The notes beneath the pieces are model-generated. The model did no database searches, was not told where the DNA came from, and saw only the letters and a list, made by a program, of their open reading frames with translations. 33,711 nt of DNA, taken from positions 1 through 33,711 of the IMG/VR virus record IMGVR_UViG_3300044623_000215. The stretch is one strand, 5' to 3'. Origin of the DNA: a virus. A program made the position numbers and the translations under genes. Positions 4,284 through 17,109 of this stretch are shown here, one piece after another; positions within the stretch are counted from its first letter, which is position 1; every line of letters starts with the position of its first letter.

Positions 4284-4308
4284 TTTTCCTTGTTTTATTT
4301 AGATTATT

Positions 4309-4599: not shown

Positions 4600-4635
4600 A
4601 ATATAAAACCTTTGTATTTATTTTAATTAATATAA

Positions 4636-4851
4636 TTAATCTAATTCATCAGGAATAGCAGAGCACTCATCACAGTCTATATCATTATCATAGTTATCAT
4701 ACTTGACTAGACTACCCAGGTGGTGGTCAAATAGGGTAAGGGCTGTGGCTGCTGCTCTATTTAATAATGTATCAATAGCATCAAATGATAATCTCTCATC
4801 TGTATCTAATTGAACATTGACTGGACCTACTGACATGGACATATTAAACAT
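4636..4851 (-). CDS. Hypothetical acidic protein
   Basis: 71 residues beginning MFNMSMSVGPVNVQLDTDER, with an acidic C-terminus (DNYDNDIDCDECSAIPDELD) containing one CDEC pair. No family recognised. The ATG at 4851 has an AAAGGA ribosome site 7-8 bases upstream. It has its own strong promoter at 4939-4967, so it may be expressed separately from the genes upstream, together with the HNH nuclease that follows. Confidence 0.65.
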   Translation of the reverse strand: MFNMSMSVGPVNVQLDTDERLSFDAIDTLLNRAAATALTLFDHHLGSLVKYDNYDNDIDCDECSAIPDELD

Positions 4852-4938
4852 ATATATTCCTTTGATTGTTATTACTACTAATAATGGACTCTATTGATTC
4901 CGTCCAGTTTTTGGGTAGGCTCTGCACTGTCGCTTCTT

Positions 4939-4967
4939 ATTATACAGTATGTTTCAAGATTAGTCAA
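4939..4967 (-). promoter_or_regulatory. Strong sigma-70-type promoter
   Basis: Minus strand TTGACT (4967-4962), 17-base spacer, TATAAT (4944-4939). The -35 box overlaps the last codons of the upstream HTH gene. It drives the 71-residue protein and the HNH nuclease, and perhaps reads on to the terminase genes. Confidence 0.75.
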
Positions 4968-5691
4968 TTAAACTTCTTGCTTTGGCAATAGCAGAGATAT
5001 CATAAAGACCATTCTTCATTGGCACATTATGTTGTCTAACTATCTTATTAAGTTCTACCTTAGACAGATTCATCCATAGACAAATAGCATCTATATCTAA
5101 CCAAAAGGTTCTATTAGGGTTAGCCATAGCCAAGGCTAGTAGTCTATATAATGTCCATGAAGTACGACACTTATGGCATCTTACTCCTGCTAATAGATTA
5201 TCTATATCTATAGCAATATGAGATCTGCATTCATCAGTAGGACATGGGATTCTTCTAGGCTTCTCTATGAAGTTCTTATTGATTGCCATTCCTTTATTAT
5301 GGAGTTCCTTTATTGATCCCGCAAACTCTTCCACCCAATCCTGTTGGACTGTCCATTCAAGATGAGCCAAGTGGAATGAGACTGTTGCAGCAACCTCTAG
5401 TTCTACTGTGGCTTCTCTCTTCAGTAAGGCTGGAGGAGTAAGGGATCTTGCTCTACGGATAAGGGCTTCATACTTATGCATGACCCCTAAGATTTCCTTA
5501 CCCATAGAATAATCTAATGCGTTCACATTAAATCCTATTGATCTCTCTGTGCTTGGTGCACCTGAGCCTGAACGACCTGGACTAACAAATGATGCAGCAC
5601 CTGACTGTAGTTCAGGTAACTCAGTAAGCATAGACTTAAGAGTAAGATACTGACTCCTAGTTAACTTACCTTCGCTCATATTGTTATCCAT
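4960..5691 (-). CDS. DNA-binding protein: zinc ribbon plus MerR-like HTH
   Basis: 243 residues. The N-terminal 60 residues are low in structure. A helical middle (about 60-140) follows, then a zinc-ribbon-like segment with cysteines at CPTDEC and CHKC (about 150-180) and a C-terminal winged-helix-like region (LDIDAICLWMNLSKVELNKI ending in GLYDISAIAKARSL) that resembles the DNA-binding end of excisionase/MerR-type proteins. This layout is seen in actinophage helix-turn-helix regulators. It may control early or late transcription. It overlaps nothing and is followed by a strong promoter. The DNA-binding call is reasonably firm; the target is unknown. Confidence 0.7.
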   Translation of the reverse strand: MDNNMSEGKLTRSQYLTLKSMLTELPELQSGAASFVSPGRSGSGAPSTERSIGFNVNALDYSMGKEILGVMHKYEALIRRARSLTPPALLKREATVELEVAATVSFHLAHLEWTVQQDWVEEFAGSIKELHNKGMAINKNFIEKPRRIPCPTDECRSHIAIDIDNLLAGVRCHKCRTSWTLYRLLALAMANPNRTFWLDIDAICLWMNLSKVELNKIVRQHNVPMKNGLYDISAIAKARSLID

Positions 5692-5693
5692 AC

Positions 5694-5957
5694 TTATCCC
5701 TTTGGCTTCTCTAACTGATTGAATAAGTCATCAACATTATTAACACCTTTAAACTCTTGCTTAACAACATGTTCTTCTACTGCCTCTGTAAACAACTCTT
5801 TGCGTTTATTTAGTTTGTCTACCTTTACTGATAAGAACATCAAGATTGCTGGTGCTATCCATCCTAATACATATGCAGCAAGTACCCATCTGAATAATCC
5901 TCTGCCTTTGGTAAATGCTATAACTCCTGCTACTGTCATCCATACAAGTTCCATCAT
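5694..5957 (-). CDS. Small membrane protein
   Basis: 87 residues. The first 45 contain two hydrophobic segments (MELVWMTVAGVIAF and FRWVLAAYVLGWIAPAILMF) separated by a short basic loop; the rest is a charged cytoplasm-like tail (KVDKLNKRKELFTEAVEEHV). The start ATG overlaps the stop of the 43-residue zinc-ribbon gene upstream, and the stop is just before the HTH gene, so it lies in the middle of one operon. No family recognised. Confidence 0.65.
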   Translation of the reverse strand: MMELVWMTVAGVIAFTKGRGLFRWVLAAYVLGWIAPAILMFLSVKVDKLNKRKELFTEAVEEHVVKQEFKGVNNVDDLFNQLEKPKG

Positions 5958-6085
5958 TTATCTTTCTCCCATTCTACTGTTTCTACCCAACCTATTTCTA
6001 GTTGAGTCTTACCACAAACGATACACTCTGTCTCGTCCTTTGATGCTGCTTTACAATCTTTACAGTAGTAAATCTTGTAGATCAT
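5954..6085 (-). CDS. 43-residue zinc-ribbon protein
   Basis: A short ORF beginning MIYKIYYCKDCKAASKDETE with a second CIVC pair, so CxxC-x9-CxxC, a minimal zinc ribbon. The C-terminus is acidic and Trp-containing (GWVETVEWEKDK). It starts in a four-base ATGA overlap with the upstream gene and ends in an overlap with the membrane protein downstream, which strongly supports that it is translated. The role is unknown; such mini-ribbons often bind nucleic acid or RNA polymerase. Confidence 0.65.
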   Translation of the reverse strand: MIYKIYYCKDCKAASKDETECIVCGKTQLEIGWVETVEWEKDK

Positions 6086-6408
6086 TCTTCAATGCCTTCT
6101 ATTTCCTTTAACTGCCGTTTTGATATTGGCCTGCCAAATGCTTGATAATGTATATAAGCATAGGCTTCATGCATCCTTTGTTGCTTCTCTTCTGCTGTTA
6201 GTTCCTTGATTGTGTACATATGCTTATCTCGTTTCCTATCAACTTCTTGTTCTGCCCTTTTGTTTGCCTGCCATTTGGTCATGTATGCTTTCTTACATAC
6301 TCTACATTCTGTGTGAAGTCTAGCCTTATTCTTTTGCTGAGGACCAAAGAACTCTTCAGTTAATGGCTTCTCAATCTTGCATTTAGAACAAACTCTAGAC
6401 TCTGGCAT
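6082..6408 (-). CDS. Zinc-binding hypothetical protein
   Basis: 108 residues from the ATG at 6408 (MPESRVCSKCKIEKPLTEEF). An earlier start at 6468 would overlap the upstream gene by about 56 bases and has no better ribosome site. The first 40 residues hold two CxxC pairs (CSKC and CRVC) in the arrangement found at the N-terminus of many small phage zinc proteins and endonuclease VII-like proteins. The rest is a highly charged helix. It resembles the 84-residue protein at 6652-6906 over the ribbon. The nuclease residues of endonuclease VII are not visible, so only zinc binding is claimed. Confidence 0.6.
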   Translation of the reverse strand: MPESRVCSKCKIEKPLTEEFFGPQQKNKARLHTECRVCKKAYMTKWQANKRAEQEVDRKRDKHMYTIKELTAEEKQQRMHEAYAYIHYQAFGRPISKRQLKEIEGIEE

Positions 6409-6412
6409 TAAA

Positions 6413-6655
6413 CTACTCTTCTTCTGGTAGTTCCGTACTAGACTGGCTGTACATAGTGTAGAAAGCATTTAGTCTGTTATGCATACGAAGCATATAGTCA
6501 AACTGCTCATCAGTTAGGTTAGGCCAGTCTGATCTACCTGTACCTGGAAGAATTCCAATACCTGTGTTTAGAAAGTTAAGAATCTTTTCTGCTTCATAAA
6601 GCATCACTCCACTTGGAAGTACTGTGCTTGGATTTGCTTGTTCTTGCTGTATCAT
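6413..6655 (-). CDS. Hypothetical protein
   Basis: 80 residues, starting MIQQEQANPSTVLPSGVM and ending in an acidic tail. Mainly helical, with an aromatic patch (LNAFYTMYSQSS). No cysteines and no recognised domain. The start overlaps the upstream stop by ATGA, so it is part of the same tightly coupled operon. Confidence 0.6.
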   Translation of the reverse strand: MIQQEQANPSTVLPSGVMLYEAEKILNFLNTGIGILPGTGRSDWPNLTDEQFDYMLRMHNRLNAFYTMYSQSSTELPEEE

Positions 6656-6906
6656 TTGTTTTCCTTCTTCTCTCGTCTGATTAGTTTATGATAGCAACAC
6701 TTGCATACTGTACGAGCATAGTGTGGCTTATCACATCCTGCTGTTGAACATTTCTTCTTATTGGTGTCCCATGTTTTCTTTACTGAGACATTGCGACATG
6801 TCTTGCAATAGTAATCATAGCCATCATCATTAGGACGATAAGCCTTCATCTTATAGAAGACGCTTATATCCTTTGTCTCTTTGCACTTAGAACATGTTTT
6901 TGTCAT
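6652..6906 (-). CDS. Zinc-ribbon protein
   Basis: 84 residues beginning MTKTCSKCKETKDISVFYKM, with CSKC and CKTC ligands, then a second cysteine-rich part (CSTAGCDKPHYART, CKCC, H). It may bind two zinc ions. The same N-terminal ribbon occurs in the protein at 6082-6408. It overlaps the HNH gene upstream by 20 bases, with AGGACGAGTCA as ribosome site. The function is unknown. Confidence 0.65.
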   Translation of the reverse strand: MTKTCSKCKETKDISVFYKMKAYRPNDDGYDYYCKTCRNVSVKKTWDTNKKKCSTAGCDKPHYARTVCKCCYHKLIRREKKENK

Positions 6907-7261
6907 TGACTCGTCCTAAGTTAAATCTATCAGTAACTACCTCAAGGTGTGAAGGATTTACACAAGCCTTGTTCTCACACTTGTGATGTAGTACTTTTCT
7001 GTTCTGTGTTGTATCTGTGCCAATTGGCAAGTTGTTAAAGCCATTTGCAAGGGCATAAGAAAATCTATGTGCTCTTACAGTATAGGTTCTAGTATTGGCC
7101 TTGAAGTAAATATTAAATACTCCATAGCCTTTATCTGATTTGGCTCCTGTCCAAACAATACAACCATCTGGTTGTTCTTCTAAATAAGACTTAAATCTCT
7201 TAACTATTATTTCATTGTTAACATATTTCTTTATATAAGAATCTGCTTGTCCCATAGTCAT
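6887..7261 (-). CDS. HNH endonuclease (HNH_3 type)
   Basis: 124 residues from ATG 7261, chosen because it overlaps the upstream stop (TAATG); a longer frame to 7330 would lie inside the upstream gene. Motifs: CIVWTGAKSDKGYG, then AHRFSYALANG, and the HNH core VLHHKCENKACVNPSHLEVV with HH, Asn and His plus Cys ligands. This is the standard small HNH nuclease seen as a free-standing homing enzyme in phages. It is distinct from the nuclease next to the terminase at 4309-4599, which makes a packaging role less likely for this copy. Confidence 0.85.
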   Translation of the reverse strand: MTMGQADSYIKKYVNNEIIVKRFKSYLEEQPDGCIVWTGAKSDKGYGVFNIYFKANTRTYTVRAHRFSYALANGFNNLPIGTDTTQNRKVLHHKCENKACVNPSHLEVVTDRFNLGRVNDKNMF

Positions 7262-7425
7262 TATGCATTCACCAACCCGTATTCCATCAGATATTCTCCA
7301 ACGGTTGTGATGCCCTTGTATTCGTTGCAATCTGCACAGAACTGTGTCTGGCTGTAATCAATCTTATCCGCAATGATGGTCTCACAGAAGACACAAATAA
7401 CTGCGTTCATATTTTCCATATTCAT
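7261..7425 (-). CDS. 54-residue zinc-ribbon protein
   Basis: The start MNMENMNAVICVFCETIIAD at 7425 is preceded by GGGAATAAA; the longer frame from 7458 lies close to the -10 box and lacks a ribosome site. Two pairs (CVFC and CADC) make a mini zinc ribbon. It is the first gene after the promoter at 7477-7505 and overlaps the HNH gene. The role is unknown. Confidence 0.6.
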   Translation of the reverse strand: MNMENMNAVICVFCETIIADKIDYSQTQFCADCNEYKGITTVGEYLMEYGLVNA

Positions 7426-7476
7426 TTTATTCCCATTTCTAGTAGTATTTAGGAGCATCTCTGCTGCTATATAATA

Positions 7477-7505
7477 AGTATATCATGGCATTATTACCAA
7501 TGCAA
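7477..7505 (-). promoter_or_regulatory. Candidate promoter
   Basis: Minus strand TTGCAT (7505-7500), 17 bases, TATACT (7482-7477). The -35 box is weak, the -10 good. It lies between the glycosyltransferase stop and the zinc-ribbon gene at 7425, the only spacer in this part of the operon. Confidence 0.5.
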
Positions 7506-7542
7506 CTAATATAGCCATATTTGGAATATCGTTACCAAATCG

Positions 7543-8598
7543 TTATAATTGGTACCAGCCCTTGTCAAACTGATTAAGCAGTCTTCTAAAATATCTGTCA
7601 TATTGATATCTAATCATATCACTAGAGTATTTTGCATATGCATCTGTGGCTATTGCTCTATGATCAAGGTGCTTTACTTTTTCCGTTGCCGTCACAAATT
7701 CAGCAAATGAGTTACAACGATAGCCATTAAATCCGTTCTTAACTGTCTCAGTAAAAATGCCTAGATCTGTGGTTATAACGGGTGTTCCAACAGCCAAGGC
7801 CTCTAGATGTGAGTTGCATCCTGGTTCAAGGTATAAGGTAGGGCTGAAGGCTCCTAATGCACCTCCTAGCAGTGCTGCTCTGTCTTCTGCTTTAACATTT
7901 CCAATGTAAGTTCCATAGGCTGGACGATAATCTCCAGTACCACCAAGAATTAATTCAACTCCAAGATGCTCACAGACCTGAGATGCTATGTCAATTCCTT
8001 TACGCTGTGTTAAACGACCTAAATAGACATAGTAATCTTTTTTGTCCAATTGCATAGAAAACATCTTAGGATCAAAGTAAGGATTAATAACAGTATCCAT
8101 AAAGTTAATGTCTACTGATGCAGCATTGCGATGTTGAGCATAGACTGCTGATCTCCATGTATTGCTTTCAAATACCTTGTAATTACTAAATACACCAGAG
8201 TACCCAATACCGTACTCCACTGAAATATTTTCAGGGAATGCATCTGATACTGGCTTCTGAGCAAGACCTCCAATAATACAGATAAAGTCTTTTGGTTGTA
8301 TGCGTTTCTTTATTTCTCTGATTGCATTGCTGTTAAAAGTTACCCAATGTGGAAGAGTATTATCAAAGGATGTTGATGTAAAATGATTATTGCCAACAGC
8401 CTCTGCTCTTTCTCCTTCAGAAATACAGGTAATCAATTCTGTAGGATTAGATGTTGTTTCTTCACCAGCATACAAAAATACCTCATGGCCAATGCTAGTC
8501 ATCATTCTAACAAAACCATGGGTTTTAGCCGTATACGCACAGGAGAAGTAATCTTCAGTTACTTGCGTATGAGGCAATGCCAAAACATGAAATCTCAC
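7543..8598 (-). CDS. Glycosyltransferase, GT-B fold, family 4-like
   Basis: 351 residues. The start is GTG at 8598, forming a GTGA overlap with the upstream stop; an upstream TTG would lie inside that gene. The C-terminal Rossmann half has YYVYLGRLTQRKGIDIASQV, GTGDYRP and the donor-binding LEALAVGTPVITTDLGIF, typical of GT4 retaining glycosyltransferases using nucleotide sugars. The N-terminal half is less conserved and would bind the acceptor. In this phage the acceptor could be a fibre protein or the host surface. It sits in the early operon, away from the sugar dehydrogenase at 13568-14836, although the two could work together. The family call is firm; donor and acceptor are unknown. Confidence 0.85.
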   Translation of the reverse strand: MRFHVLALPHTQVTEDYFSCAYTAKTHGFVRMMTSIGHEVFLYAGEETTSNPTELITCISEGERAEAVGNNHFTSTSFDNTLPHWVTFNSNAIREIKKRIQPKDFICIIGGLAQKPVSDAFPENISVEYGIGYSGVFSNYKVFESNTWRSAVYAQHRNAASVDINFMDTVINPYFDPKMFSMQLDKKDYYVYLGRLTQRKGIDIASQVCEHLGVELILGGTGDYRPAYGTYIGNVKAEDRAALLGGALGAFSPTLYLEPGCNSHLEALAVGTPVITTDLGIFTETVKNGFNGYRCNSFAEFVTATEKVKHLDHRAIATDAYAKYSSDMIRYQYDRYFRRLLNQFDKGWYQL

Positions 8599-8747
8599 TT
8601 GCAGCAACCATCCTCACAGTCACAACTGTCACTCATGCTGTCAATAAGAAAATCTAATTGCTCAAGTGCATTGATCAAAGAAATCTTGATACCAATAAGT
8701 TCTTCAATCTCGTATTGATTATTATCTTGGTTTGTTGTTAGTTCCAT
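8595..8747 (-). CDS. 50-residue protein with Cys-rich tail
   Basis: The ORF from ATG 8747 begins MELTTNQDNNQYEIEELIGI, has a short amphipathic helix, and ends with a striking cysteine-rich tail (DSCDCEDGCCK). It overlaps the upstream gene by 26 bases and the downstream glycosyltransferase by GTGA, so it is embedded in the operon. The tail could bind metal. No family is recognised. Confidence 0.55.
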   Translation of the reverse strand: MELTTNQDNNQYEIEELIGIKISLINALEQLDFLIDSMSDSCDCEDGCCK

Positions 8748-8901
8748 TGTTTTGCCCCATTTCCTTCATCTCGTTAATAATTGCATCAAGTCTATCAATA
8801 GCAGCATTTAGTGAATCTACTGCTTCTTGTACTTTATGTTCAGGAGTAACTTGTCCTCTAATCCATTCTGAACGAACTCCGTCTAAACTTATTCCACCCA
8901 T
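8722..8901 (-). CDS. Small helical hypothetical protein
   Basis: 59 residues from the ATG at 8901 (MGGISLDGVRSEWIRGQVTP), which has a GGAG ribosome site 7 bases upstream. A longer frame to 8967 adds a basic 22-residue extension without a ribosome site, so the shorter start is preferred. The C-terminal half is a coiled-coil-like helix (VQEAVDSLNAAIDRLDAIIN). The function is unknown. Confidence 0.6.
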   Translation of the reverse strand: MGGISLDGVRSEWIRGQVTPEHKVQEAVDSLNAAIDRLDAIINEMKEMGQNNGTNNKPR

Positions 8902-8971
8902 TTCTTTTCTCCATTTCTTGTTATAGTGTTTATCATTCATATATCTATGAAAATATCGTCTTACCATTGTA

Positions 8972-9217
8972 TCATGACCTAACTATCTTTGGTGCTTTAC
9001 TAATGTTGGTTCTCTTGTTACGAACATCAGCAATTGTGCCTTTGGCTAGATCTGGAAAGTCTTTGCCCTTATTCCTTTTTTGCCAGGAATCCATAAAGGT
9101 CTCAACATGAGAATCAATCAACTGCATAATCTGCTCATCAGACATAGCATTAAGTTCTGCCTCATTGTGCTTTCTCCAAAAGGATTTAACTATTACTGGC
9201 TCGTACTCTTTAGTCAT
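8972..9217 (-). CDS. Hypothetical charged protein
   Basis: 81 residues, beginning MTKEYEPVIVKSFWRKHNEA, helical in the middle (DEQIMQLIDSHVETFMDSWQ), with a basic C-terminus. GGAGCAGCAAAA precedes the ATG, and the start overlaps the end of the upstream membrane peptide gene. No family recognised. Confidence 0.6.
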   Translation of the reverse strand: MTKEYEPVIVKSFWRKHNEAELNAMSDEQIMQLIDSHVETFMDSWQKRNKGKDFPDLAKGTIADVRNKRTNISKAPKIVRS

Positions 9218-9332
9218 TTTTGCTGCTCCAATAGAAATATGCTAACCAACCAATGGACATTGCAATGATTGGGCTTCCTGTTACTAGATTAATAACGCCT
9301 GCCGTTACTATGGCTTTAAATACATTATCCAT
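9210..9332 (-). CDS. 40-residue membrane peptide
   Basis: The ORF from ATG 9332 (MDNVFKAIVTAGVINLVTGS) continues with a hydrophobic segment (PIIAMSIGWLAYFYW) and a short polar end. It starts 5 bases inside the stop codon region of the upstream 52-residue gene and overlaps the downstream start by 8 bases, a strong sign of translational coupling. One membrane pass is expected. The function is unknown. Confidence 0.55.
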   Translation of the reverse strand: MDNVFKAIVTAGVINLVTGSPIIAMSIGWLAYFYWSSKND

Positions 9333-9483
9333 TTTTTACCTTGGTCTTTTTCTTTCTTAGTTTTCCACCTCTTGGACCAACAGGTTGTCTATCAGCCAAA
9401 GATGCTTCATATTCAAGAAGTAGTCCTAAATCAGAAGAAGGTTCTTTATAGGTAACTTTTACAGGAAATACTTTTCTACTCAT
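9325..9483 (-). CDS. 52-residue hypothetical protein with basic C-terminus
   Basis: The ORF from ATG 9483 begins MSRKVFPVKVTYKEPSSDLG and ends in a lysine/arginine-rich tail (GGKLRKKKTKVKNG). It starts in an ATGA overlap with the upstream gene. The basic tail suggests nucleic-acid contact. No family recognised. Confidence 0.55.
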   Translation of the reverse strand: MSRKVFPVKVTYKEPSSDLGLLLEYEASLADRQPVGPRGGKLRKKKTKVKNG

Positions 9484-9704
9484 TTGTAAGATACCTCTAC
9501 TGGAAACACATATTGTGATTCTTCTACTCTTCGCTTTGGCATTTTCTTTCTAATGCCCAAAAAGTTACACATCTCAGGTTGATGCATTGATTCTTTTGTT
9601 TTCTTATTCCACAGGATTAATTCTCCTGTAACCATAGACCTATTACAAACATTACAAGTCTTCTTGTATTTATTGATTATAGTTAACCAATCATTATCTA
9701 ACAT
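9480..9704 (-). CDS. Zinc-ribbon-like protein, first gene of early operon
   Basis: 74 residues, with CNVC near residue 17 and a later Cys and His pair (ESMHQPEMC). A basic segment (RKKMPKRRVEESQ) follows. GGGATAAAT precedes the ATG. It is the first gene after the promoter at 9864-9893 and a long leader, and its stop overlaps the next start by ATGA. The role is unknown; the cysteine pattern suggests a metal-binding fold. Confidence 0.65.
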   Translation of the reverse strand: MLDNDWLTIINKYKKTCNVCNRSMVTGELILWNKKTKESMHQPEMCNFLGIRKKMPKRRVEESQYVFPVEVSYK

Positions 9705-9863
9705 ATTTATCCCATTTCCTTATATAGTATATAGAAGATATACAGTGCCTAATTTCTCTAAGCAACCGTAACCACTATTTTAATTAAAAAATAGTAAGAA
9801 ACAGATTGACTAGAGAAAATTATTTCTCACTGGAGAGGTACCGTAAAACTTCGCAGTGATATC
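9705..9863 (-). other. Long structured 5' leader of the early operon
   Basis: About 150 transcribed bases without a gene. Two hairpins are visible on the minus strand: GAGAAATAATTTTCTC, and ACTATTTT...AAAATAGT with a 6-base loop (around 9773-9794). No known riboswitch class is recognised. The leader may govern translation or early termination of the operon. Confidence 0.4.
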
Positions 9864-9893
9864 AGTGTACCATGATGTTTTATTAAAAGTCAA
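9864..9893 (-). promoter_or_regulatory. Early-operon promoter
   Basis: Minus strand TTGACT (9893-9888), 18-base spacer, TACACT (9869-9864). A direct repeat of CAGTG (9 bases apart, around 9854-9867) overlaps the -10 region and could be an operator. The promoter lies immediately after the terminator at 9902-9951. Confidence 0.65.
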
Positions 9894-9901
9894 ATGTATA
9901 C

Positions 9902-9951
9902 AAAAAAAGGAAGCCCTGGCCAGAAACGGGAGTTAAAGAACCAGGACTTCC
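9902..9951 (-). terminator. Rho-independent terminator of the lysis block
   Basis: On the minus strand GGAAGTCCTGG pairs with CCAGGGCTTCC (11-bp stem with one G-U pair, 21-base loop), followed by seven T residues. It ends the transcript containing the transglycosylase and the two mini-ORFs at 10017-10217. Confidence 0.85.
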
Positions 9952-10016
9952 TATATCTATGAAATCACGGAGGTGTCAACATAGAATACTATTGTAGCAG
10001 GTGGTATAAGTGTATG

Positions 10017-10106
10017 TCAATATAGTTTGATTTTTGTTCTATTACCGTTTTCATCAGTAGTCCAAACTTCAACAAAATCTTCTTCTTGTGTAATTTCTTC
10101 TGTCAT
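10017..10106 (-). CDS. 29-residue mini-protein, paralogue of its neighbour
   Basis: The ORF from ATG 10106 (MTEEITQEEDFVEVWTTDEN, ending GNRTKIKLY) has an AAGGAGAAATC ribosome site. The C-terminal half matches that of the 33-residue protein just upstream (EVWxxDxxGNxxKxKxY), so the two arose by duplication. This conservation supports translation. The function is unknown. Confidence 0.55.
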   Translation of the reverse strand: MTEEITQEEDFVEVWTTDENGNRTKIKLY

Positions 10107-10115
10107 GATTTCTCC

Positions 10116-10217
10116 TTAGTATATCTTTACTTTTACTAGATTACCGTCTTTGTCACGGCTCCATACTTCAGTAGACTCTAGTTTTAAATCTTCAATTATC
10201 TTATCTAGTTCTTCCAT
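10116..10217 (-). CDS. 33-residue mini-protein
   Basis: The start is ATG 10217 (MEELDKIIEDLKLESTEVWS), directly after the transglycosylase stop; a longer frame to 10319 lies inside that gene. It ends DGNLVKVKIY, paralogous to the 29-residue protein downstream. A short acidic helix followed by a beta hairpin is plausible. The function is unknown; the position suggests a lysis or late accessory peptide. Confidence 0.55.
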   Translation of the reverse strand: MEELDKIIEDLKLESTEVWSRDKDGNLVKVKIY

Positions 10218-10218
10218 T

Positions 10219-10635
10219 TTAATACCAGCCTTTCTTCTGAAAATGTTTCCAGGCTCCACATGGATGTGAATGCCTTCTGGAAATATAAGATAGCGTAGCA
10301 ACCAATTGGGATACTGCACTATCTGATTTCTTCATTCCTAGACTGCTTGCTGTGCTGTCTAAGAGTTGTCCAATTCCACTGGCTGTAGAAGTTGGGTTCT
10401 GTGCCTTTGAATTCCACGCTGACTCTTTGCCAATCAGCCTGGTCAGGCACAAAAATTGCTCTTTATTGAGCAAATCCTTAGCCACTTCCTTTGCATTTAC
10501 GCTCAGCAAGGGTGGTCTATCCTTGTAAATAACTAACTCTGGTACTGCTTGTTCTGTTGTAATACTCGCTTGTAAAAATACTGCCAGCAAAATAGCAATT
10601 ACTGCTCTTTGCCATAGGTTTTTGTTTCGCTTAAT
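10219..10635 (-). CDS. Secreted lytic transglycosylase-like endolysin, ATT start
   Basis: About 138 residues from an ATT codon at 10635 with a well-placed GGAG (10646-10643, 7 bases away); no ATG lies in frame upstream before a stop. That start gives a basic N-terminus and hydrophobic core (WQRAVIAILLAVFLQ), a classic signal or signal-anchor sequence. A TTG at 10590 is the alternative but would cut the signal sequence. The catalytic region is FLCLTRLIGKESAWNSKAQN, then GIGQLLDSTASSLG, matching SLT-type transglycosylases with the catalytic Glu in GKES. The C-terminus (HPCGAWKHFQKKGWY) is typical of actinophage and actinobacterial members. It would cleave peptidoglycan at lysis. The adjacent holin-like genes at 11366-11817 fit. 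Confidence 0.75.
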   Translation of the reverse strand: MKRNKNLWQRAVIAILLAVFLQASITTEQAVPELVIYKDRPPLLSVNAKEVAKDLLNKEQFLCLTRLIGKESAWNSKAQNPTSTASGIGQLLDSTASSLGMKKSDSAVSQLVATLSYISRRHSHPCGAWKHFQKKGWY

Positions 10636-10679
10636 AAATCTTCTCCTTTGGTAGTTGAACTGCCCCTACTCATTGGCAT
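10599..10679 (-). CDS. Possible 26-residue leader peptide overlapping the endolysin start
   Basis: ATG at 10679 has a very strong site (AAAGGAGGTAAG, 8 bases). It encodes MPMSRGSSTTKGEDLLSETK and stops within the signal-peptide region of the transglycosylase, in another frame. It could be a regulatory leader whose translation controls the atypical ATT start, or a frameshift feed. Translation is likely from the ribosome site; the role is inference. Confidence 0.45.
   Translation of the reverse strand: MPMSRGSSTTKGEDLLSETKTYGKEQ
10643..10646 (-). promoter_or_regulatory. Ribosome binding site that decides the ATT start
   Basis: AAAGGAGAAG on the minus strand, with GGAG 7 bases before the ATT codon at 10635. 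It lies inside the overlapping 26-residue ORF. Confidence 0.5.
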
Positions 10680-10693
10680 AAGACTTACCTCCT

Positions 10694-10834
10694 TTACAAT
10701 TTGTTCTTCTCAATTAAATCACAGATCTGATCAATGGTCCAGGAATCTAGACCTTCAACCTCAGATAATCTCTCCACCAGTTCTTCCTTGGCGAAGATAT
10801 ATCCGTCTGTGAAACCTTCTTTGTACTCTGACAT
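10694..10834 (-). CDS. 46-residue hypothetical protein
   Basis: The ORF from ATG 10834 (MSEYKEGFTDGYIFAKEELV) ends CDLIEKNKL. Acidic and helical. Small proteins opening with a 'YKEGFxDGYxxAKEEL' pattern are common in phages, but their function is unknown. There is no clear ribosome site: TAAACT lies six bases before ATG, so it may be leaderless. It is divergent from the plus-strand gene at 10891. Confidence 0.6.
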   Translation of the reverse strand: MSEYKEGFTDGYIFAKEELVERLSEVEGLDSWTIDQICDLIEKNKL

Positions 10835-10854
10835 TACTCTAGTTTACACCATTC

Positions 10855-10882
10855 TTGACAATTACGACATGGATGATATAGA
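10855..10882 (+). promoter_or_regulatory. Plus-strand promoter with leaderless start
   Basis: TTGACA (10855-10860), 16-base spacer, TATAGA (10877-10882). The ATG at 10891 is only 8 bases after the -10 box and lacks a ribosome site, so transcription should begin at or next to the start codon. Confidence 0.7.
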
Positions 10883-10890
10883 CTTTAATT

Positions 10891-11127
10891 ATGAAACTAG
10901 AAAACTTTATTAATCCTTACACAGGTGAACAACTACAAAACTTCATTGAGGTCTGCTCTGGCTGCCACCTCAATTTTGCTACTACTGAGGCTGGAGACAA
11001 GCATCGTATTGGTGCCTTTGGAAAGGACAGACGCTGTGCTTCTCCTGAAGAGGTTGGCCTCAAAAAAGTAATAAATAAATATGGGTCTACTGTCTATAAA
11101 AGAACCAGGGATAAGGTCCGTCTCTGA
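10891..11127 (+). CDS. Zinc-finger-like protein, only plus-strand gene
   Basis: 78 residues. The core CSGCHLNFATTEAGDKHRIG followed by RRCASPEEVGL and a late 'NKYGSTVY' strand matches a small protein family frequent in actinobacteria and their phages, which has a Cys-x-x-Cys...His-Arg...Cys zinc site. It is the only gene on this strand, with its own consensus promoter and probably a leaderless mRNA, so it is expressed independently of the two flanking minus-strand operons. A DNA-binding or regulatory role is likely from the layout but not shown. Family recognition is from the pattern only. Confidence 0.75.
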   Translation: MKLENFINPYTGEQLQNFIEVCSGCHLNFATTEAGDKHRIGAFGKDRRCASPEEVGLKKVINKYGSTVYKRTRDKVRL

Positions 11128-11146
11128 ATGCCCTTTTTCACTTTTT

Positions 11147-11165
11147 TTCACGCTCAGTTTTTGAC
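11147..11165. promoter_or_regulatory. Intergenic motif copy 2
   Basis: TTCACGCTCAGTTTTTGAC on the plus strand, 17 of 19 identical to 4232-4250. It is followed by a possible plus-strand promoter (TTGACG, 17 bases, TATAGG at about 11170-11198). Confidence 0.4.
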
Positions 11166-11202
11166 GATTGACGGGTTTTGGTCACTGAGGTATAGGTAGA
11201 TG

Positions 11203-11245
11203 CCTAAACGGGCCTTAAAACGGCTGCTAGGCACCTAAAACAGGC
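11203..11245. repeat. Three degenerate short repeats
   Basis: CCTAAACGGGC (11203), CTTAAAACGGC (11214) and CCTAAAACAGGC (11234) resemble each other and lie in the gene-free spacer between convergent genes. They might be protein-binding sites or iterons; too short and degenerate to be sure. Confidence 0.3.
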
Positions 11246-11260
11246 ACTCTAGAAACAAGG

Positions 11261-11286
11261 AAAAGACCTCAGAATTAACTGAGGCC
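11261..11286 (-). terminator. Terminator after the holin genes
   Basis: Minus strand GGCCTCAG and CTGAGGTC form an 8-bp stem with a 6-base loop, followed by TTTT. It lies about 80 bases downstream of the holin-like gene at 11366 and separates it from the convergent plus-strand gene. Confidence 0.6.
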
Positions 11287-11365
11287 CTTCCATGTAGATA
11301 ATTAATCAGATATGTATTCATATAATGGTGGTTCTGTATTTGATCTACATACACCTATTGTACTC

Positions 11366-11584
11366 TTATTTCTTTGTTATGCCAAATTCTTTTTCATTAG
11401 GCTGTAGGGCTTTTAGTACTGGTCCTGCTAATGCAGCCAAGAACGCATTTGCTAATACCTTTGGATCTGTAATTCCTGCCATGTACATAGCAAGTACGGC
11501 TGCTACGGCTGCTCTAAGATATGATGATCCTGCTGCTAGGGCTTGTTCTTTAACTGTCTTTGGTGCTGGTTTCTTTGTAGCCAT
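11366..11584 (-). CDS. Holin-like membrane protein
   Basis: 72 residues. A basic Pro-rich N-terminus (MATKKPAPKTVKEQALAAGS), one Ala-rich hydrophobic segment (LRAAVAAVLAMYMAGI) and a second (LANAFLAALAGPVLKAL), then a charged end. Small size, two membrane spans and position beside another membrane protein and the endolysin fit a holin. It starts directly at the stop of the upstream gene. The call is by topology and context. Confidence 0.6.
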   Translation of the reverse strand: MATKKPAPKTVKEQALAAGSSYLRAAVAAVLAMYMAGITDPKVLANAFLAALAGPVLKALQPNEKEFGITKK

Positions 11585-11817
11585 TATTTCTCCTTTGGTG
11601 GTGCTTTTCTTTTAGGTCGTACATTCTCAGTCATGAGAATAGTCATAATTTGCTGTACCTGGATTTCTAGCCTATTAACAGAATCTTTTAGGCTTGAGCC
11701 AGAATTGGGTTTTAATTCAGATAGGTAGTGTTTTACCATCCAACGAACTGCTGTAGCAAGTCCTCCAATTAGGGTAAAGATTGCTACAAAAAATGCAGCC
11801 CAGTCTTGTGGTGTCAT
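11584..11817 (-). CDS. Holin or membrane accessory protein
   Basis: 77 residues with one N-terminal membrane span (WAAFFVAIFTLIGGLATAV), then an amphipathic helix (SLKDSVNRLEIQVQQIMTIL) and a basic C-terminus (RPKRKAPPKEK). This layout is common for actinophage holins and antiholins. It overlaps the oxygenase gene upstream by ATGA and touches the next membrane gene, forming a holin pair. Confidence 0.65.
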   Translation of the reverse strand: MTPQDWAAFFVAIFTLIGGLATAVRWMVKHYLSELKPNSGSSLKDSVNRLEIQVQQIMTILMTENVRPKRKAPPKEK

Positions 11818-12515
11818 GACTCTTCTTGGCCTTCCCAGAGATGCTTCTCTAATTGATATTGTCTTTCAAAGTTTAGAACTCCACGATAGTCACAGCATGG
11901 ACAAATTGGTCTGTCATTGCTGTAGTCTGGTTGTGACCAGTAGCCCATCTTGGCTCTAAATCTAAAGTCTGACTTCCATGAGTTTTCAGCATGTCCATCT
12001 GGTGTAAACGCCCAGTGATCAGGTTCTGCAAATTGCATAAATAGCAAGTGCACAAACTTGTCTTCATCTTCTGATGGAAACTCTGGTCTCCAGTGCATTT
12101 GATAATTTCCACAAAAGACAATACAGTCATTTGGTTGTTCATCATAGAAAACATCGTCTACTGCCAATTGCCAGTCAATGTTTTTATCAATGCAAATATC
12201 TAAAGAATACTGGCAGGCTGATTGATCATAATGCTTCCATAGTTGTGGCTTAATACCGTTTTGCTTTTGGTATCTTCCAGTGTGGAATCCTGCTCTTTGG
12301 ATTGTGTCAGAACCAAATGTCTTCTTGGCTATTTCTAAGATTTCTGCTTCTGTCTCAGCATCAAAGCGAACTTCTTCTAACCATCTACCAGCGACTGTAT
12401 GATAGAAATGTGGGCCATCAGGTCCTAGATTCATCTCAAGTAATTGCTTCTTTACCTTCTCAAATAGTTCTGCTGGAAAGAAGTTTTTGACAGATCTTGT
12501 GTCTACTGCTTTCAT
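11814..12515 (-). CDS. 2OG-Fe(II) oxygenase-like protein with C-terminal zinc knuckle
   Basis: 233 residues. The iron-binding pattern is seen as H95-Y-D97 (LWKHYDQSACQYSLDICID) and a distal H141-W-R143, in the context of a double-stranded beta helix. The middle is clearly paralogous to the 184-residue protein at 14833-15387: 'ACxYxLD', 'PNDCIVFCGNYQMHWR' against 'PNEAILFMGEEYEHWR', and 'FAEPDHW' against 'YVEPEHW'. The C-terminus adds CPCCDYRGVLNFERQYQLEK and a His, a zinc-finger-like knuckle absent from the paralogue. It would hydroxylate a protein or other target using 2-oxoglutarate; the substrate is unknown. AGGAGAGTC precedes the ATG. Confidence 0.7.
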   Translation of the reverse strand: MKAVDTRSVKNFFPAELFEKVKKQLLEMNLGPDGPHFYHTVAGRWLEEVRFDAETEAEILEIAKKTFGSDTIQRAGFHTGRYQKQNGIKPQLWKHYDQSACQYSLDICIDKNIDWQLAVDDVFYDEQPNDCIVFCGNYQMHWRPEFPSEDEDKFVHLLFMQFAEPDHWAFTPDGHAENSWKSDFRFRAKMGYWSQPDYSNDRPICPCCDYRGVLNFERQYQLEKHLWEGQEES

Positions 12516-12542
12516 TTAATTGACTCTCCTATCATATTGTTG

Positions 12543-13571
12543 TCATACATTTAGTTTTGACTCTTTCCAATCTCGTTCCCATGTTCCAACACTTAGTCGT
12601 GACCAACTATAGTGTCCACCTTGGGTGTTCTTGTTGTCAAAAACAGGGTTTTTAGAAGGATAGTATTTAAATCTATCGTCTCCGTTGTTATTCCTTAATT
12701 GGTAAATCATTGTGCTAAAAGTAGAAAATGGCGTTCCAACAAAGTCTTCTGCCATAGACATCACAAGAGCACTTATCAAAGCAACTGTCACTCTGTTTTG
12801 AAATCTAAGTTCTTTAAAATCCTTTAAAAATTCTCCAAGAATAATGTCTTCAAGAAGAATTAGTTTATTTTTATCTATTAAATTACTATTAAAGTCATCT
12901 ATGCTGCATAAAATTGGCAATGATTTGTTGTCAAATTGATCTAATCCTTGATTTAAGGCATCTTGAGTAAATTTATAATACTTATGATGATCTGGCATAA
13001 TTCTAATTTGTGTACCGTTAAAATTTTTATAATGCTTTGCTATTTTTTCTGCAATGTCGTAATATTCTTGTTTAAATCTAAATTTGCTTAAGTTAACATC
13101 TATATCTTTAGACCTGTCATAAAAAAATCTGCTATACCACATCAAGGTATTAGTCATTAAATTGTCACAATCTTCTTTAAACTCTACCTTTTTTCTTGTT
13201 CCTGCAAAATCTTTTTCGTTTATTGTATTTCCAGATACATTTAAATATGATTCATGAGTATTAATTAAATTTATTGATGACCTGTCTTTTAAGAAATAGT
13301 CGTTCTTATGTAGAGTGTAATTATCGTAATTAAAATCAACCAAATCAAAAATAGTAGGATTTTTTAAATTGTTTAAATGTTTATCTATTTTTTCTGTATT
13401 AACTTTGTTCCAACTTGCTGATTGAGGATCTTCTATATTTCTATGAGTTAGGTCCCATACAAGGTTAATGTTAGTATCTTTGAGGTGGCCAAGAAGTCCT
13501 GCAAATAATTGAAGACTAGAAAATTGATTTCCCAGACCATTTTGAGAATAACCAATATATGTTAAATTCAC
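12543..13571 (-). CDS. Fucosyltransferase-like glycosyltransferase (putative)
   Basis: 342 residues. It starts at GTG 13571 in a GTGA overlap with the dehydrogenase stop. The N-terminus YIGYSQNGLGNQFSSLQLFA resembles the GDP-binding 'GLGNQ' opening of fucosyltransferases. A mid segment (TQIRIMPDHHKYY) could hold the donor-binding Arg, and the C-terminal VGTPFSTFSTMIYQLRNNNG resembles the Ser-Phe-Ser motif of protein O-fucosyltransferases. It is unusually AT-rich compared with its neighbours, hinting at separate acquisition. A role in sugar transfer fits the adjacent UDP-sugar dehydrogenase. The assignment is by motifs only and could be wrong at family level. Confidence 0.5.
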   Translation of the reverse strand: MNLTYIGYSQNGLGNQFSSLQLFAGLLGHLKDTNINLVWDLTHRNIEDPQSASWNKVNTEKIDKHLNNLKNPTIFDLVDFNYDNYTLHKNDYFLKDRSSINLINTHESYLNVSGNTINEKDFAGTRKKVEFKEDCDNLMTNTLMWYSRFFYDRSKDIDVNLSKFRFKQEYYDIAEKIAKHYKNFNGTQIRIMPDHHKYYKFTQDALNQGLDQFDNKSLPILCSIDDFNSNLIDKNKLILLEDIILGEFLKDFKELRFQNRVTVALISALVMSMAEDFVGTPFSTFSTMIYQLRNNNGDDRFKYYPSKNPVFDNKNTQGGHYSWSRLSVGTWERDWKESKLNV

Positions 13572-14836
13572 TTAGGCCTTCCAATGCTCTTATTCCAAAC
13601 TTGATATTGCCAATGAATAGATTCTTGTTCATCTGCCCACGGATCAATAATCCAAGACTGTACTGGAAGAGATAAAGTTCTAAATACATCATGTGGAGTG
13701 GCAACAAAGAATATCTTTGGCCCATCACAAATAAGTTTTTCATTATTTTGTAGTGGATCAAAAGATCTAAACCTTACTCCTAATTCTTGTAGGTAATGCT
13801 GAAGAAGTATAGATGGACTTCCAGTTGTTATTCCAATATTTTTTTTATAGGAATTTCCTAATACAATAACTTCGTTTCCGCTTTCATCTTGTGCCTTTTT
13901 TAATATTTTTGCAAAATACATAGATTGTTGATCTCTTGCTTTTGCAATCATTTCAAATATATCAAAAGATAGGTCAATCTCTTTTGCTAACCAAGACATC
14001 GCTATCTGGTCTCTTGGGTGGCATCCACCACCATCACCCATTCCAGCCTTCATATATTTGTTAGATATGATTCTGTTTGTGGCTAATGACAATGTGTCTG
14101 TTACTTCATCAACATGGCCACCAATTTTTTCTGTTATCTCTGCCAAAGTATTTGCAAAAACAATCTTCATTCCAATAAATGTATTGTAGGCAACCTTGGT
14201 TAATTCTGCTGATTCTAATGTAATTTCTACAACAGGGCAAGACAAAAATGTTTTATATATTGATACTAGACGAGAAGAGTCTTCTGAGATCCTGCCAATC
14301 AGGACAAACTCAGGGTTTAAAAAGTCATGAATAGTTGTACCCATAGCAATAAAATATGGATTATAGAATATATTAACGCCATCTCTTATGGAAGTCAATA
14401 GTGGTAGGATCTGAGATCTTATTGTTCCTGGCAAAACTGTAGAGATAATTACTATGTCTAGGTTCTTATCTGTTTTCTTAGATAGGTAGTCATTTATTTT
14501 TACTACTACATCTTTTAAATAACTATAGTCAAAGTCTGCACGATCATCTGGAATAGGGCAGTTGCCCTCAAATCTTTCTAAATGTGGAGTAGGTACTGCA
14601 ACAAAAACAATATCTGAGTTATCTAAAACAGAATCTATAGAGTCTTTGATACTAAACTGTGCGTTTGCTAGATAGTCTTCTAACTCTTCTTCAATGTATG
14701 GAGTCTTTCTATCGTCAATGTACTTTTGTATATTAGGATTAACATCAAACCCGTAAACTGTTTTACCAGTTTTAACACTCATCGCTGCAGCACAAGGCAA
14801 GCCAAGTTTTCCTAAACCAATAAATCCTATGTTCAC
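13568..14836 (-). CDS. UDP-glucose/GDP-mannose 6-dehydrogenase family
   Basis: 422 residues from GTG 14836, which overlaps the upstream stop (GTGA) and has GGAG 5 bases before; the longer frame to 14896 lies in the upstream gene. An N-terminal Rossmann fold (NIGFIGLGKLGLPCAAAMS) binds NAD. The central domain has ELTKVAYNTFIGMKI with the catalytic Lys and Asn (about 214, 218), and GMGDGGGCHPRD holds the catalytic Cys at about 272 (Arg replaces the usual Lys after Pro). The C-terminal domain completes the substrate pocket. It oxidises a nucleotide sugar to the uronic acid in two NAD-dependent steps. All key residues are present, so it should be active; the sugar is not known. Confidence 0.88.
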   Translation of the reverse strand: MNIGFIGLGKLGLPCAAAMSVKTGKTVYGFDVNPNIQKYIDDRKTPYIEEELEDYLANAQFSIKDSIDSVLDNSDIVFVAVPTPHLERFEGNCPIPDDRADFDYSYLKDVVVKINDYLSKKTDKNLDIVIISTVLPGTIRSQILPLLTSIRDGVNIFYNPYFIAMGTTIHDFLNPEFVLIGRISEDSSRLVSIYKTFLSCPVVEITLESAELTKVAYNTFIGMKIVFANTLAEITEKIGGHVDEVTDTLSLATNRIISNKYMKAGMGDGGGCHPRDQIAMSWLAKEIDLSFDIFEMIAKARDQQSMYFAKILKKAQDESGNEVIVLGNSYKKNIGITTGSPSILLQHYLQELGVRFRSFDPLQNNEKLICDGPKIFFVATPHDVFRTLSLPVQSWIIDPWADEQESIHWQYQVWNKSIGRPK

Positions 14837-15387
14837 ATTCTCTCCTGCTGTGCCCATATTTCTTTTACATGGTCTGGACCTTTTGTAAAGTACCAATGCT
14901 CTGGTTCAACATAATGGAAGAAGACAACACCAATTTTGCCAGTATTGTTATAAAGAGTTTCTCTCCAATGTTCATATTCCTCACCCATAAACAAAATTGC
15001 TTCGTTTGGATTGGCTGTATATGCTTTACCATCTATGTATAACGCCCAAGGATCTCCTTGATAGAGAACTAAGTCAAGCGTATATGTGCAAGCATTTGCA
15101 TCTTTGTGCTTATGAAGACTAATAGTCTCATCAGAATATTCTGCAAATAATGAATAGGAAGGAAGCATTGTCTGGCTGCCAAAATAGTCTCTTACTTTTG
15201 GTAGTAACATTTCACTAAATTCTTTTAATATTGGTTCTGATTGGTCTCCCGCTAATTTTCTACCAAACTCATCAGTAGGTACAGATTTTAATCCCTCATG
15301 ATTTTTAAAATGCATACGAAGTCTATCAAAATCAGCAGGGCTTAAAACATTCTTAATTAAACCAACTTCTTTGTTTATGCCATCCAT
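14833..15387 (-). CDS. 2OG-Fe(II) oxygenase-like protein
   Basis: 184 residues. Iron ligands are suggested by H94-K-D96 (ISLHKHKDANACTYTLDL) and H140-W-R142 (GEEYEHWRETLYNN). The ending VEPEHWYFTKGPD is shared with the paralogue at 11814-12515. The fold is probably a beta-helix dioxygenase acting on a protein or cell-surface substrate. It overlaps the prolyl hydroxylase-like gene upstream and the sugar dehydrogenase downstream, so all three are co-translated. The substrate is unknown; the family call rests on the His-x-Asp...His pattern. Confidence 0.7.
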   Translation of the reverse strand: MDGINKEVGLIKNVLSPADFDRLRMHFKNHEGLKSVPTDEFGRKLAGDQSEPILKEFSEMLLPKVRDYFGSQTMLPSYSLFAEYSDETISLHKHKDANACTYTLDLVLYQGDPWALYIDGKAYTANPNEAILFMGEEYEHWRETLYNNTGKIGVVFFHYVEPEHWYFTKGPDHVKEIWAQQERM

Positions 15388-15941
15388 TGGACCACCACAT
15401 ATCTTAGTCCATCAGTAACTGGGTGCACCTGATGATTATAAATAAAGTTAGATGGAAAGATTAGAAGGTCATTCTTCTTAGCCTTAAACCTTAATCCATG
15501 TCTGTTAAACTCAACATCGCCACCCTCATACTCATCATTTAAGTAATAAGTCAGAGATATTCTGCGAGTAAAGAATGGATGGTCATCAATATGGTCGTGG
15601 AACTTTTGCTCTTTACCGTATCTCAGTAGTTGTGGGTTTTCAAACTTTTCTATCTTTGCGTAATATGCTGCCATATACTGATCTAAGCAAGGCTTCATTT
15701 GTTCATGAAACTTCTTTGTAAATTCATCAAGAACTGAGTTTCCTTCATCAGTGTGATGTGGAAGCATGATTAAGTCTGTATCTCTAGCCTTAGTATTTGT
15801 ACCAGACTGATGCTCTTCTTCGCTTACAAGTACTTCTGCTGCCCTCCAAGAAATGCCTGCTTCTTCTATCTTGGCAATATAGTCCATTGATTCAGGAAAT
15901 ATATTTTCAAATACTACTATTCCTGGTGCTAGTTCTTTCAT
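15375..15941 (-). CDS. Prolyl 4-hydroxylase-like 2OG-Fe(II) oxygenase
   Basis: 188 residues. The P4H signature is clear: H117-x-D119 in KFHDHIDDHPFFTRRISLTY, YYLNDEYEGGDVEF, the lysine-led KKNDLLIFPSNFIYNH with the distal His at 170, and the 2-oxoglutarate-binding Arg in DGLRYVVVQW (R180). Relatives occur in many marine and freshwater phages. It uses O2 and 2-oxoglutarate to hydroxylate, commonly on proline in proteins. The same genome encodes Pro-rich repeat proteins (16570-17088) and collagen-like fibres, which are obvious candidate substrates; that link is inference. All catalytic residues are present. Confidence 0.88.
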   Translation of the reverse strand: MKELAPGIVVFENIFPESMDYIAKIEEAGISWRAAEVLVSEEEHQSGTNTKARDTDLIMLPHHTDEGNSVLDEFTKKFHEQMKPCLDQYMAAYYAKIEKFENPQLLRYGKEQKFHDHIDDHPFFTRRISLTYYLNDEYEGGDVEFNRHGLRFKAKKNDLLIFPSNFIYNHQVHPVTDGLRYVVVQWMA

Positions 15942-15942
15942 G

Positions 15943-16170
15943 TTACCACTTCCCTATTGGACACTTTGAAATTTGATATTTTGCCTTAAAAGTCATAAAG
16001 CAACCACATTTTTTACATTGATTAGTCATGTGTAAAAAGGATGGACATGCTTTACATGTGTCTAATCTTTGATCATATTGTTCATCAGAGACCTTTGTTA
16101 ATGTAGGATTGATTAGATCTAATGGAGTTATTCCATTCTTTTCTTTATATTTCTTCCAAGGTGTTTCCAT
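15943..16170 (-). CDS. Cysteine-rich zinc-binding protein
   Basis: 75 residues. The second half has RLDTCKACPSFLHMTNQCKK followed by CGCFMTFKAKYQISKCPIGK, giving six cysteines in CxxC-like pairs and a terminal CPIGKW. Proteins with this 'CGCF...CPxGKW' ending occur in phages next to 2OG oxygenase genes (I recall a DUF6171-type family). Probably binds zinc; the role is unknown. It lies 2 bases before the prolyl hydroxylase gene. GGGGCAAACA precedes the ATG. Confidence 0.7.
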   Translation of the reverse strand: METPWKKYKEKNGITPLDLINPTLTKVSDEQYDQRLDTCKACPSFLHMTNQCKKCGCFMTFKAKYQISKCPIGKW

Positions 16171-16188
16171 TGTTTGCCCCGCTTTTTC

Positions 16189-16551
16189 TTATTTCTTTGT
16201 AAATGTTGTATCGCCAAAAAGTATTCTTGGATTACTTGATAGTACAGATCCAAACTCAGAGGTGGTGGTTAGTTGATCTAATTCATTACCGTCAGAATCA
16301 ACAAATCTAACAATTGAGCAGTCATCATTTACACCTTCAATAGTTACTGCTTTGCTTAAAAGTTGAGTAAACCAGGTATATGTTCTTATTTGTCGTAGCC
16401 ACTCAATGTCGCCATTTTCATTAAAAATAGAAACATAAACTAGAGGAATACTATACTGCTTTCCAACTTCAGTGCTATCTATTAATGCTTGCTCATCTTC
16501 GTCTGAGAAACATATATTATCTTCTGTTAACATAGTACTCCATTCTATCAT
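16189..16551 (-). CDS. Hypothetical protein
   Basis: 120 residues beginning MIEWSTMLTEDNICFSDEDE. Acidic, mixed alpha/beta, without a recognised motif. An internal ATG at 16533 has GGAG four bases upstream and may be the true start. A TATAAT sequence at 16574-16569 sits just before it, but no -35 box is visible. Located between the Pro-rich repeat gene and the zinc protein. Confidence 0.55.
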   Translation of the reverse strand: MIEWSTMLTEDNICFSDEDEQALIDSTEVGKQYSIPLVYVSIFNENGDIEWLRQIRTYTWFTQLLSKAVTIEGVNDDCSIVRFVDSDGNELDQLTTTSEFGSVLSSNPRILFGDTTFTKK

Positions 16552-16569
16552 TTAAATTAACTTTTTGCA

Positions 16570-17088
16570 TTATAAACAGGTGCAACCAGTTGATGGGCTT
16601 GTACCAAATGCACAGAGTCCAGATCCATAAGCATTATCACAAACATTACCTGCAATAGCGTATGCTTCTCCTTCAGTTGCTGTTGAGACAGACTGGCAGC
16701 CACCTAAGTTACCACAGCAACAGAAGTAATATGTTGTTGTTGGAACTACAGGAGGTGTTACTGGTGGAACCACAGGTGGAACCACTGGAGGAACAACAGG
16801 AGGTACCACTGGAGGAACAACAGGAGGTACCACAGGAGGAACAACAGGAGGTACCACAGGAGGAACTACAGGAGGTACAACTGGTGGTGTCACAGGTGGA
16901 GGTGTAACTGGAGGTACGACTGGAGGTACAACTGGAGGTACGACTGGTGGAACCACAGGTGGCACTACTGGTGGTACGACAGGAGGAACGACAGGAGGCA
17001 CTACTGGTGGGACCACAGGTGGAGGTGTTGGTGCAATAAATCTTAGTACTACACCTATACCACTTGGGTTACGAAATAACGGACTCAC
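16570..17088 (-). CDS. Pro-Pro-Val-Val repeat protein with Cys-rich tail
   Basis: 172 residues from GTG 17088 (AGGAGAATC before it). After a 20-residue head (MSPLFRNPSGIGVVLRFIAP) comes about 100 residues of tandem PPVV, interrupted by a few PPVT, then a C-terminal domain of about 50 residues with eight cysteines (YYFCCCGNLGGC ... GCTCL). The Pro-rich part should form a stiff polyproline II rod; the Cys-rich end may be a metal or disulphide cap. It follows the tail-tip gene and is three genes before a prolyl hydroxylase-like gene. Hydroxylation of the repeat is a tempting inference, as in plant hydroxyproline-rich proteins. Probably a tail tip or spike component. Confidence 0.75.
   Translation of the reverse strand: MSPLFRNPSGIGVVLRFIAPTPPPVVPPVVPPVVPPVVPPVVPPVVPPVVPPVVPPVVPPVTPPPVTPPVVPPVVPPVVPPVVPPVVPPVVPPVVPPVVPPVVPPVVPPVTPPVVPTTTYYFCCCGNLGGCQSVSTATEGEAYAIAGNVCDNAYGSGLCAFGTSPSTGCTCL
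16745..17030 (-). repeat. Short tandem repeat coding PPVV
   Basis: About 12-nt units (ggaggtaccaca/ggaggaacaaca type on the plus strand) repeated some 24 times. Such DNA is prone to change in copy number and thus rod length. Confidence 0.8.
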
Positions 17089-17109
17089 GATTCTCCTTTT
17101 AAATATTAA

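Follow-up and report, generated by a model that had tools for sequence, protein, structure and literature searches.

Phage morons are marked by a promoter of their own, by sporadic presence and by an orientation that is independent of their neighbours. The phage protein family PF24071 (Phage FDXHR zinc binding domain, Phage_zn_bind_3) is named after a literal FDXHR motif, and Pfam's criterion for it is the profile score. At the level of expression, leaderless genes are frequent in Actinobacteria according to the available part of PMC3160421; in the available parts of PMC3160421 and PMC7148126 they are described as having a TANNNT hexamer, whose first T lies about 12 bases before the start codon, and as being without a ribosome site. 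We describe here a phage locus that touches on all three. Comparison of related loci (given as L numbers) shows a predicted FDXHR-type gene, hereafter the zinc gene, with a fixed promoter in a variable slot, reversed in the DNA under study and forward in two relatives. The zinc gene resembles morons in its own promoter, its sporadic presence and its neighbour-independent orientation. It shares with the actinobacterial leaderless genes, as those parts describe them, the position of the hexamer and the missing ribosome site; unlike them, it also has a full -35 at 18 bases, is borne by a phage and is known from sequence alone.

The DNA under study, hereafter the window, is a whole stretch of 33,711 bases (G+C 39.1%) from virus record IMGVR_UViG_3300044623_000215. 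Terminase, portal and capsid families were found in it by profile search, while the window yielded neither an end repeat of 21-400 bases nor an Rfam match at gathering scores. All convincing genes except the zinc gene lie on the minus strand, and the preliminary description of a sole plus-strand gene agrees with a hand-picked list of 48 minus-strand genes. The plus-strand ORFs of at least 40 aa that lie mostly outside minus-strand genes are the zinc gene, one ORF nested inside it, 3-785 and 40-711, both opposite a collagen-like minus-strand gene running off the window end, and three of 41-47 aa (4078-4221, 4866-4991 and 33471-33599). This layout is no rule of the phage group: one more reversed gene is found further up in each of L005 (7962-8639) and L006 (8037-8660).

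The host can be approached through the lysozyme-like gene of the window, since 237 of the 239 isolate-phage records matching it carry actinobacterial genus names (the other 2 read only 'Caudovirales'). The first-listed match of the portal protein is Pontimonas phage phiPsal1 (38.6%), one among 1999 matching records; as these span many phyla, the portal alone says little on the host. We infer that the host is actinobacterial.

The FDXHR-type protein

The zinc gene (10891..11127, plus strand) starts with ATG, is predicted to be leaderless and encodes 78 aa. Its product scores 29.5 bits against PF24071, for which the Pfam curated cut-off is 27; the proteins of L015, L006 and L013 also pass, and those of L005 (23.9) and L148 (24.3, the same contig as L007) lie below. 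The putative zinc site consists of C22, C25, H38 and C49 in the pattern CxxC-x12-H-R-x9-C, and these residues, together with R39, are invariant across 31 aligned homologues. The literal FDXHR motif is not present, the window protein and its phage group reading GDKHR. Because of this replacement we file the protein, by its profile score, as a variant of PF24071, with which it shares the CxxC, DxHR and RxC residues, length and fold; it departs from the family in reading GDKHR for FDKHR and in its leaderless-type promoter, where most of 63 control genes have a ribosome site.

The AF2 model has a mean pLDDT of 92.5. Five named FDXHR proteins, of which four are from Gordonia phages, are among its best nine fold matches in viruses (probability 1.00, E 8e-4 to 0.02). 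Against solved structures, Foldseek gave E 2.1 at best and VIA-align no Z of at least 2 among 145 chains, and a profile search of PDB sequences gave only E values of 0.13 and 0.57. The best PHROG is phrog_2147, of unknown function, and NCBIfam has no family for the protein. A pattern search of bacterial and archaeal genomes gave 32 candidates, of which 0 were confirmed, and tblastn in isolate phages returned a single match, in Streptomyces phage Dagobah (36%). The term 'FDXHR' was met in the literature in two papers with unrelated titles. As a match to a solved structure is absent, the predicted function is drawn from the zinc site and the charge: given a CCHC site and a pI of 9.3, the protein likely binds nucleic acid via one CCHC zinc site.

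Promoter geometry and predicted leaderless starts

Upstream of the zinc gene, a -35 TTGACA (10855..10860, plus strand) is followed by a -10 TAGACT (10879..10884, plus strand) that ends 6 bases before the ATG at 10891 (TTGACA-18-TAGACT-6-ATG), which puts the predicted transcript start on the A of this ATG. No Shine-Dalgarno sequence can be read directly upstream of this ATG. The preliminary description had proposed the same TTGACA and ATG and the same missing ribosome site, all of which hold, but with TATAGA as the -10. A TATAGA does exist at 10877-10882, with a 16-base spacer and 8 bases before the ATG, but it is not the conserved hexamer, since relatives keep TAGACT. The TAG of the -10 is an in-frame stop, and the zinc gene therefore has no ATG, GTG or TTG start upstream.

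The geometry TTGAC(A/T)-18-TANANT-6-ATG is found in 12/12 distinct copies of the zinc gene in the phage group, and the spacer sequences diverge: within the 45 upstream bases, CTTGAC, TA.A.T and few other positions are kept. The 12 copies, which include two near-identical pairs (L023/L025 and L063/L064), come from one phage group and about five lineages and hence are not independent. L007 and L009 (phage Dagobah) were omitted from them as distant FDXHR genes without this promoter. As a control we took the best 80 of 127 confirmed FDXHR-like loci, which gave 63 distinct genes with the motif (L217 is without it). TANNNT at gap 6 occurs in 0/63 of these before any ATG, GTG or TTG start, and a ribosome site precedes some start in 52/63; as the controls come from other phages of unspecified hosts, the comparison indicates a difference of lineage, not of function.

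TANNNT at gap 6 precedes 23 of the 1182 ATGs on the two strands of the window; a -35 matching in at least 5/6 positions is added in one case with spacing 18 and in another with spacing 17. A simple promoter scan of 1-20000 gave no overall excess (63 versus 60.8 expected), so that the evidence for the promoter rests on conservation and not on the single match. We also scanned the window and the related loci (L007 and L009 left aside) for a TTG-type -35, a spacer of 16-19, TANNNT, a gap of 5-7 and 30 codons. This returned 84 matches in 24 clusters: 10 clusters correspond to the zinc gene, another to a 307-residue Cys-rich gene of L038, and the remaining 13 have gap 5 or 7 among the matches listed. 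The missing ribosome site is not special in itself, given that a strict match to a ribosome site precedes some start in only 25/48 minus-strand genes.

Divergent from the zinc gene lies a gene of 46 aa (10694..10834, minus strand) with an acidic product (pI 4.2), predicted to be leaderless as well and without a match at E 1 in NCBIfam, PHROGs or Pfam. Its -10 TAAACT (10841..10846, minus strand) was found as the preliminary description had claimed, at 10846-10841 and six bases before the ATG, and no consensus -35 was seen. In 20/20 distinct copies aligned from residue 1, the ATG is preceded at gap 6 by TANNNT (TAAACT, TAGAAT or TACACT), whether or not the zinc gene faces the 46-aa gene. The divergent region with its back-to-back promoters (10835..10890) measures 56 bp, as it does in 7/7 distinct intervals so arranged. 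Taken together, the conserved spacings lend good support to a leaderless transcription of both genes and to the zinc gene having its own promoter. Literature on leaderless phage genes contained nothing on this phage group among the matches listed.

Some other genes have promoters of similar layout. The L038 gene (3742-4662), encoding the 307-aa Cys-rich protein in the slot of that locus, is preceded by TTGACC-17-TACCAT-6-ATG, a leaderless-type promoter. In another group of loci (L070, L074, L077, L083, L088, L093 and L095), a gene whose product starts M(F/S)L(A/G)YFPQ has TTGACG-19-TATCCT-5-ATG and is possibly leaderless.

A variable slot between terminator and lysozyme operon

The slot was surveyed with the flanking genes as baits, namely the lysozyme-like gene (80 of 203 retained) and a holin-like gene (37 loci), whose label comes from position and size, no family assigning a holin. 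Both flanks were present in 106 loci, which gave 40 distinct intervals, each with a member fetched via a flanking gene; for the interval of the window this member is an identical copy. The left edge of the slot is a terminator-like hairpin after the holin-like gene (11259..11291, minus strand), and the 46-aa gene, present in 19/40 intervals, is the first gene after this hairpin (11291-11259) on the minus strand. The zinc gene is found in 12/40 intervals, reversed in 10 (the window, L003, L004, L013, L015, L023, L025, L032, L063 and L064) and co-directional with its neighbours in 2 (L005 and L006). It is absent from near relatives with a lysozyme 91-93% identical to that of the window (L026, L027 and L030), where a relative of a 97-aa Cys-rich gene occupies the slot. 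In L036 and L041 the site is empty, the promoter of the 46-aa gene coming directly after the terminator. Absence from near relatives, which the preliminary description had named as counting against its own reading, speaks against the regulator or host-takeover role that it had suggested and leaves its leaderless start and independent promoter standing.

In a protein tree, the two forward copies of the zinc gene and three reversed ones form one clade (98/99 support), most inner branches being weak. The non-coding stretch that follows the gene (11128..11258, plus strand) has the same direction relative to it in 12/12 copies, though weakly in the window (0.005), L063 (0.006) and L064 (0.078). In loci without the zinc gene this element is mostly forward, with reversed copies in L037 and L040 and mixed ones in L038; some of the forward matches are trivial, because the four queries include one that reaches into the lysozyme flank. 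The direction shared in 12/12 copies suggests that gene and element were probably turned as a unit. The promoter, too, appears to have been turned together with the gene, still 6 bases away from the start codon.

Other genes were seen in the same place: L043 has an HNH_3 protein in its slot (4399-4794, minus strand) and L005 a Cys-rich or HNH gene (10425-10718). We also considered phase variation by an invertible segment and dropped it, since no flanking inverted repeats were reported (seed 9, length 12).

Among the explanations weighed, we regard it as probable that the zinc gene is an accessory, moron-like cassette, its variable slot lying past the late terminator and ahead of the next operon. 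Its presence in 12/40 intervals and its forward orientation in two relatives are more in keeping with an optional cassette than with a core regulator. A more specific regulatory role, in which the zinc protein acts on the shared region and represses both its own promoter and that of the 46-aa/lysozyme operon, would suit a small and basic protein and a distance between the divergent ATGs of exactly 56 bp (7/7 intervals). Yet we consider it unlikely: no inverted repeat was reported in 10600-11400 (seed 9, length 12, a setting that also missed the imperfect terminator hairpin), the zinc gene is not divergent in L005 and L006, and the promoter of the 46-aa gene is kept in loci that lack the zinc gene. 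We give little credence to a factor for host takeover that would be produced early, from minutes after infection onwards; a near-consensus promoter of host type, which should need no phage factor, speaks for it, but the gene is missing from 28/40 distinct intervals and no family function is known in NCBIfam, PHROGs or Pfam.

The HNH and Cys-rich genes found in the slot of relatives raise another reading, that of a passenger which brings no benefit and came with mobile nuclease-type genes using this slot. However, Pfam finds no nuclease domain in the zinc protein, and the conservation of zinc residues and promoter down to 52% protein identity points to selection, so that we hold a benefit-free passenger to be quite improbable. 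Finally, the absence of an excess of promoter-like sites in the window scan would agree with a match due to chance and a zinc gene read from a longer leader. This is very hard to reconcile with an exact geometry kept in 12/12 zinc-gene and 20/20 partner copies, and with the in-frame stop within the -10, and we deem it highly improbable.

According to the favoured reading as a moron-like cassette, host RNA polymerase with the housekeeping sigma would read the zinc gene without need of a phage factor, the transcript would begin at the AUG and be translated by host ribosomes as a leaderless mRNA, and the small basic protein would bind nucleic acid and give the phage an optional benefit. The predicted starts of the back-to-back promoters are separated by 57 bases and run in opposite directions, so that polymerases on both should exclude each other. 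More tentatively, polymerase footprints in the reversed arrangement would overlap and the firing of one promoter would hinder the other, so that the zinc cassette may dampen the first promoter of the 46-aa/lysozyme operon. Besides its own promoter, the gene shows absence from close relatives with an empty site; since its own terminator was not found on the plus strand past 11127, we call it moron-like and do not file it as a moron. This suggests that phages of the group, whose host is presumably actinobacterial, carry the leaderless layout as a portable, conserved control unit, and the locus offers a setting in which a phage protein family of unknown function can be tested.

The transglycosylase start codon

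The lysozyme-like gene itself (10219..10635, minus strand) encodes an SLT-domain transglycosylase (PF01464, 25.7 bits versus a cut-off of 21.3, on the shorter ORF 10219-10590), of 138 codons if counted from a proposed ATT start. Although its ribosome site is strong, none of ATG, GTG and TTG stands at the expected start. In 65 distinct copies we took as candidate whichever in-frame codon lay 5-9 bases past (A)GGAG, with no codon preset. The candidate was ATT in 40 copies, ATC in 21 and ATG in 2 (L096 and L098), and the 2 copies without a candidate (L024 and L065) lie near a contig end; some copies have further codons at a permitted spacing. In an earlier ATT-directed survey, which took the wrong ATT in L039 and L040, the codons after ATT vary widely. 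The conservation of ATC says less, because the 21 ATC copies share similar N-termini. Against an ATT start, that ATT-directed survey found an in-frame TTG or ATG upstream in 8/40 copies (ribosome sites of these upstream codons unchecked) and none in 32. The transglycosylase thus seems to start with ATT or ATC in these sequences.

The lysozyme start is overlapped, in another frame, by an ORF of 26 codons (10599..10679, minus strand) whose own ribosome site, AAAGGAGGT, is strong, and translational coupling from this short ORF to the lysozyme is possible. A frameshift from one into the other was set aside, as the short ORF of L037 and L041 ends ahead of the lysozyme ribosome site. The available part of PMC5472188 reports that IF3 represses non-canonical starts and that the start codon of infC is ATT in E. 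coli and ATC in Streptomyces, and that of PMC2268962 that excess IF3 inhibits leaderless mRNAs and re-initiation without a ribosome site; the latter effect does not apply to the lysozyme, which has one.

These elements could be joined into a speculative proposal, which we think rather doubtful: that the 46-aa operon is built from kinds of initiation opposed by IF3, namely a leaderless first gene and, downstream of the short ORF, a transglycosylase starting with AUU or AUC, the codons that infC itself uses. If true, how much lysis enzyme is made late in infection would hinge on IF3 or on the state of the ribosomes, and the zinc cassette, being reversed, would bring in a second promoter in competition with that of the operon. 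If the AUU/AUC starts are real, a phage lysis gene would have conserved start codons of the infC type; literature on non-canonical start codons held nothing on this phage group among the matches listed.

Elsewhere on the minus strand of the window, we observed collagen-like long genes at both record ends (3-779 and 29730-33488), a gene whose product has three RNA-binding stretches of the S1 type (PF00575; 2806-3606) and is 92% identical in its L006 copy, and a gene encoding a long PPV(V/T) repeat (16570-17088), likewise present in L005.
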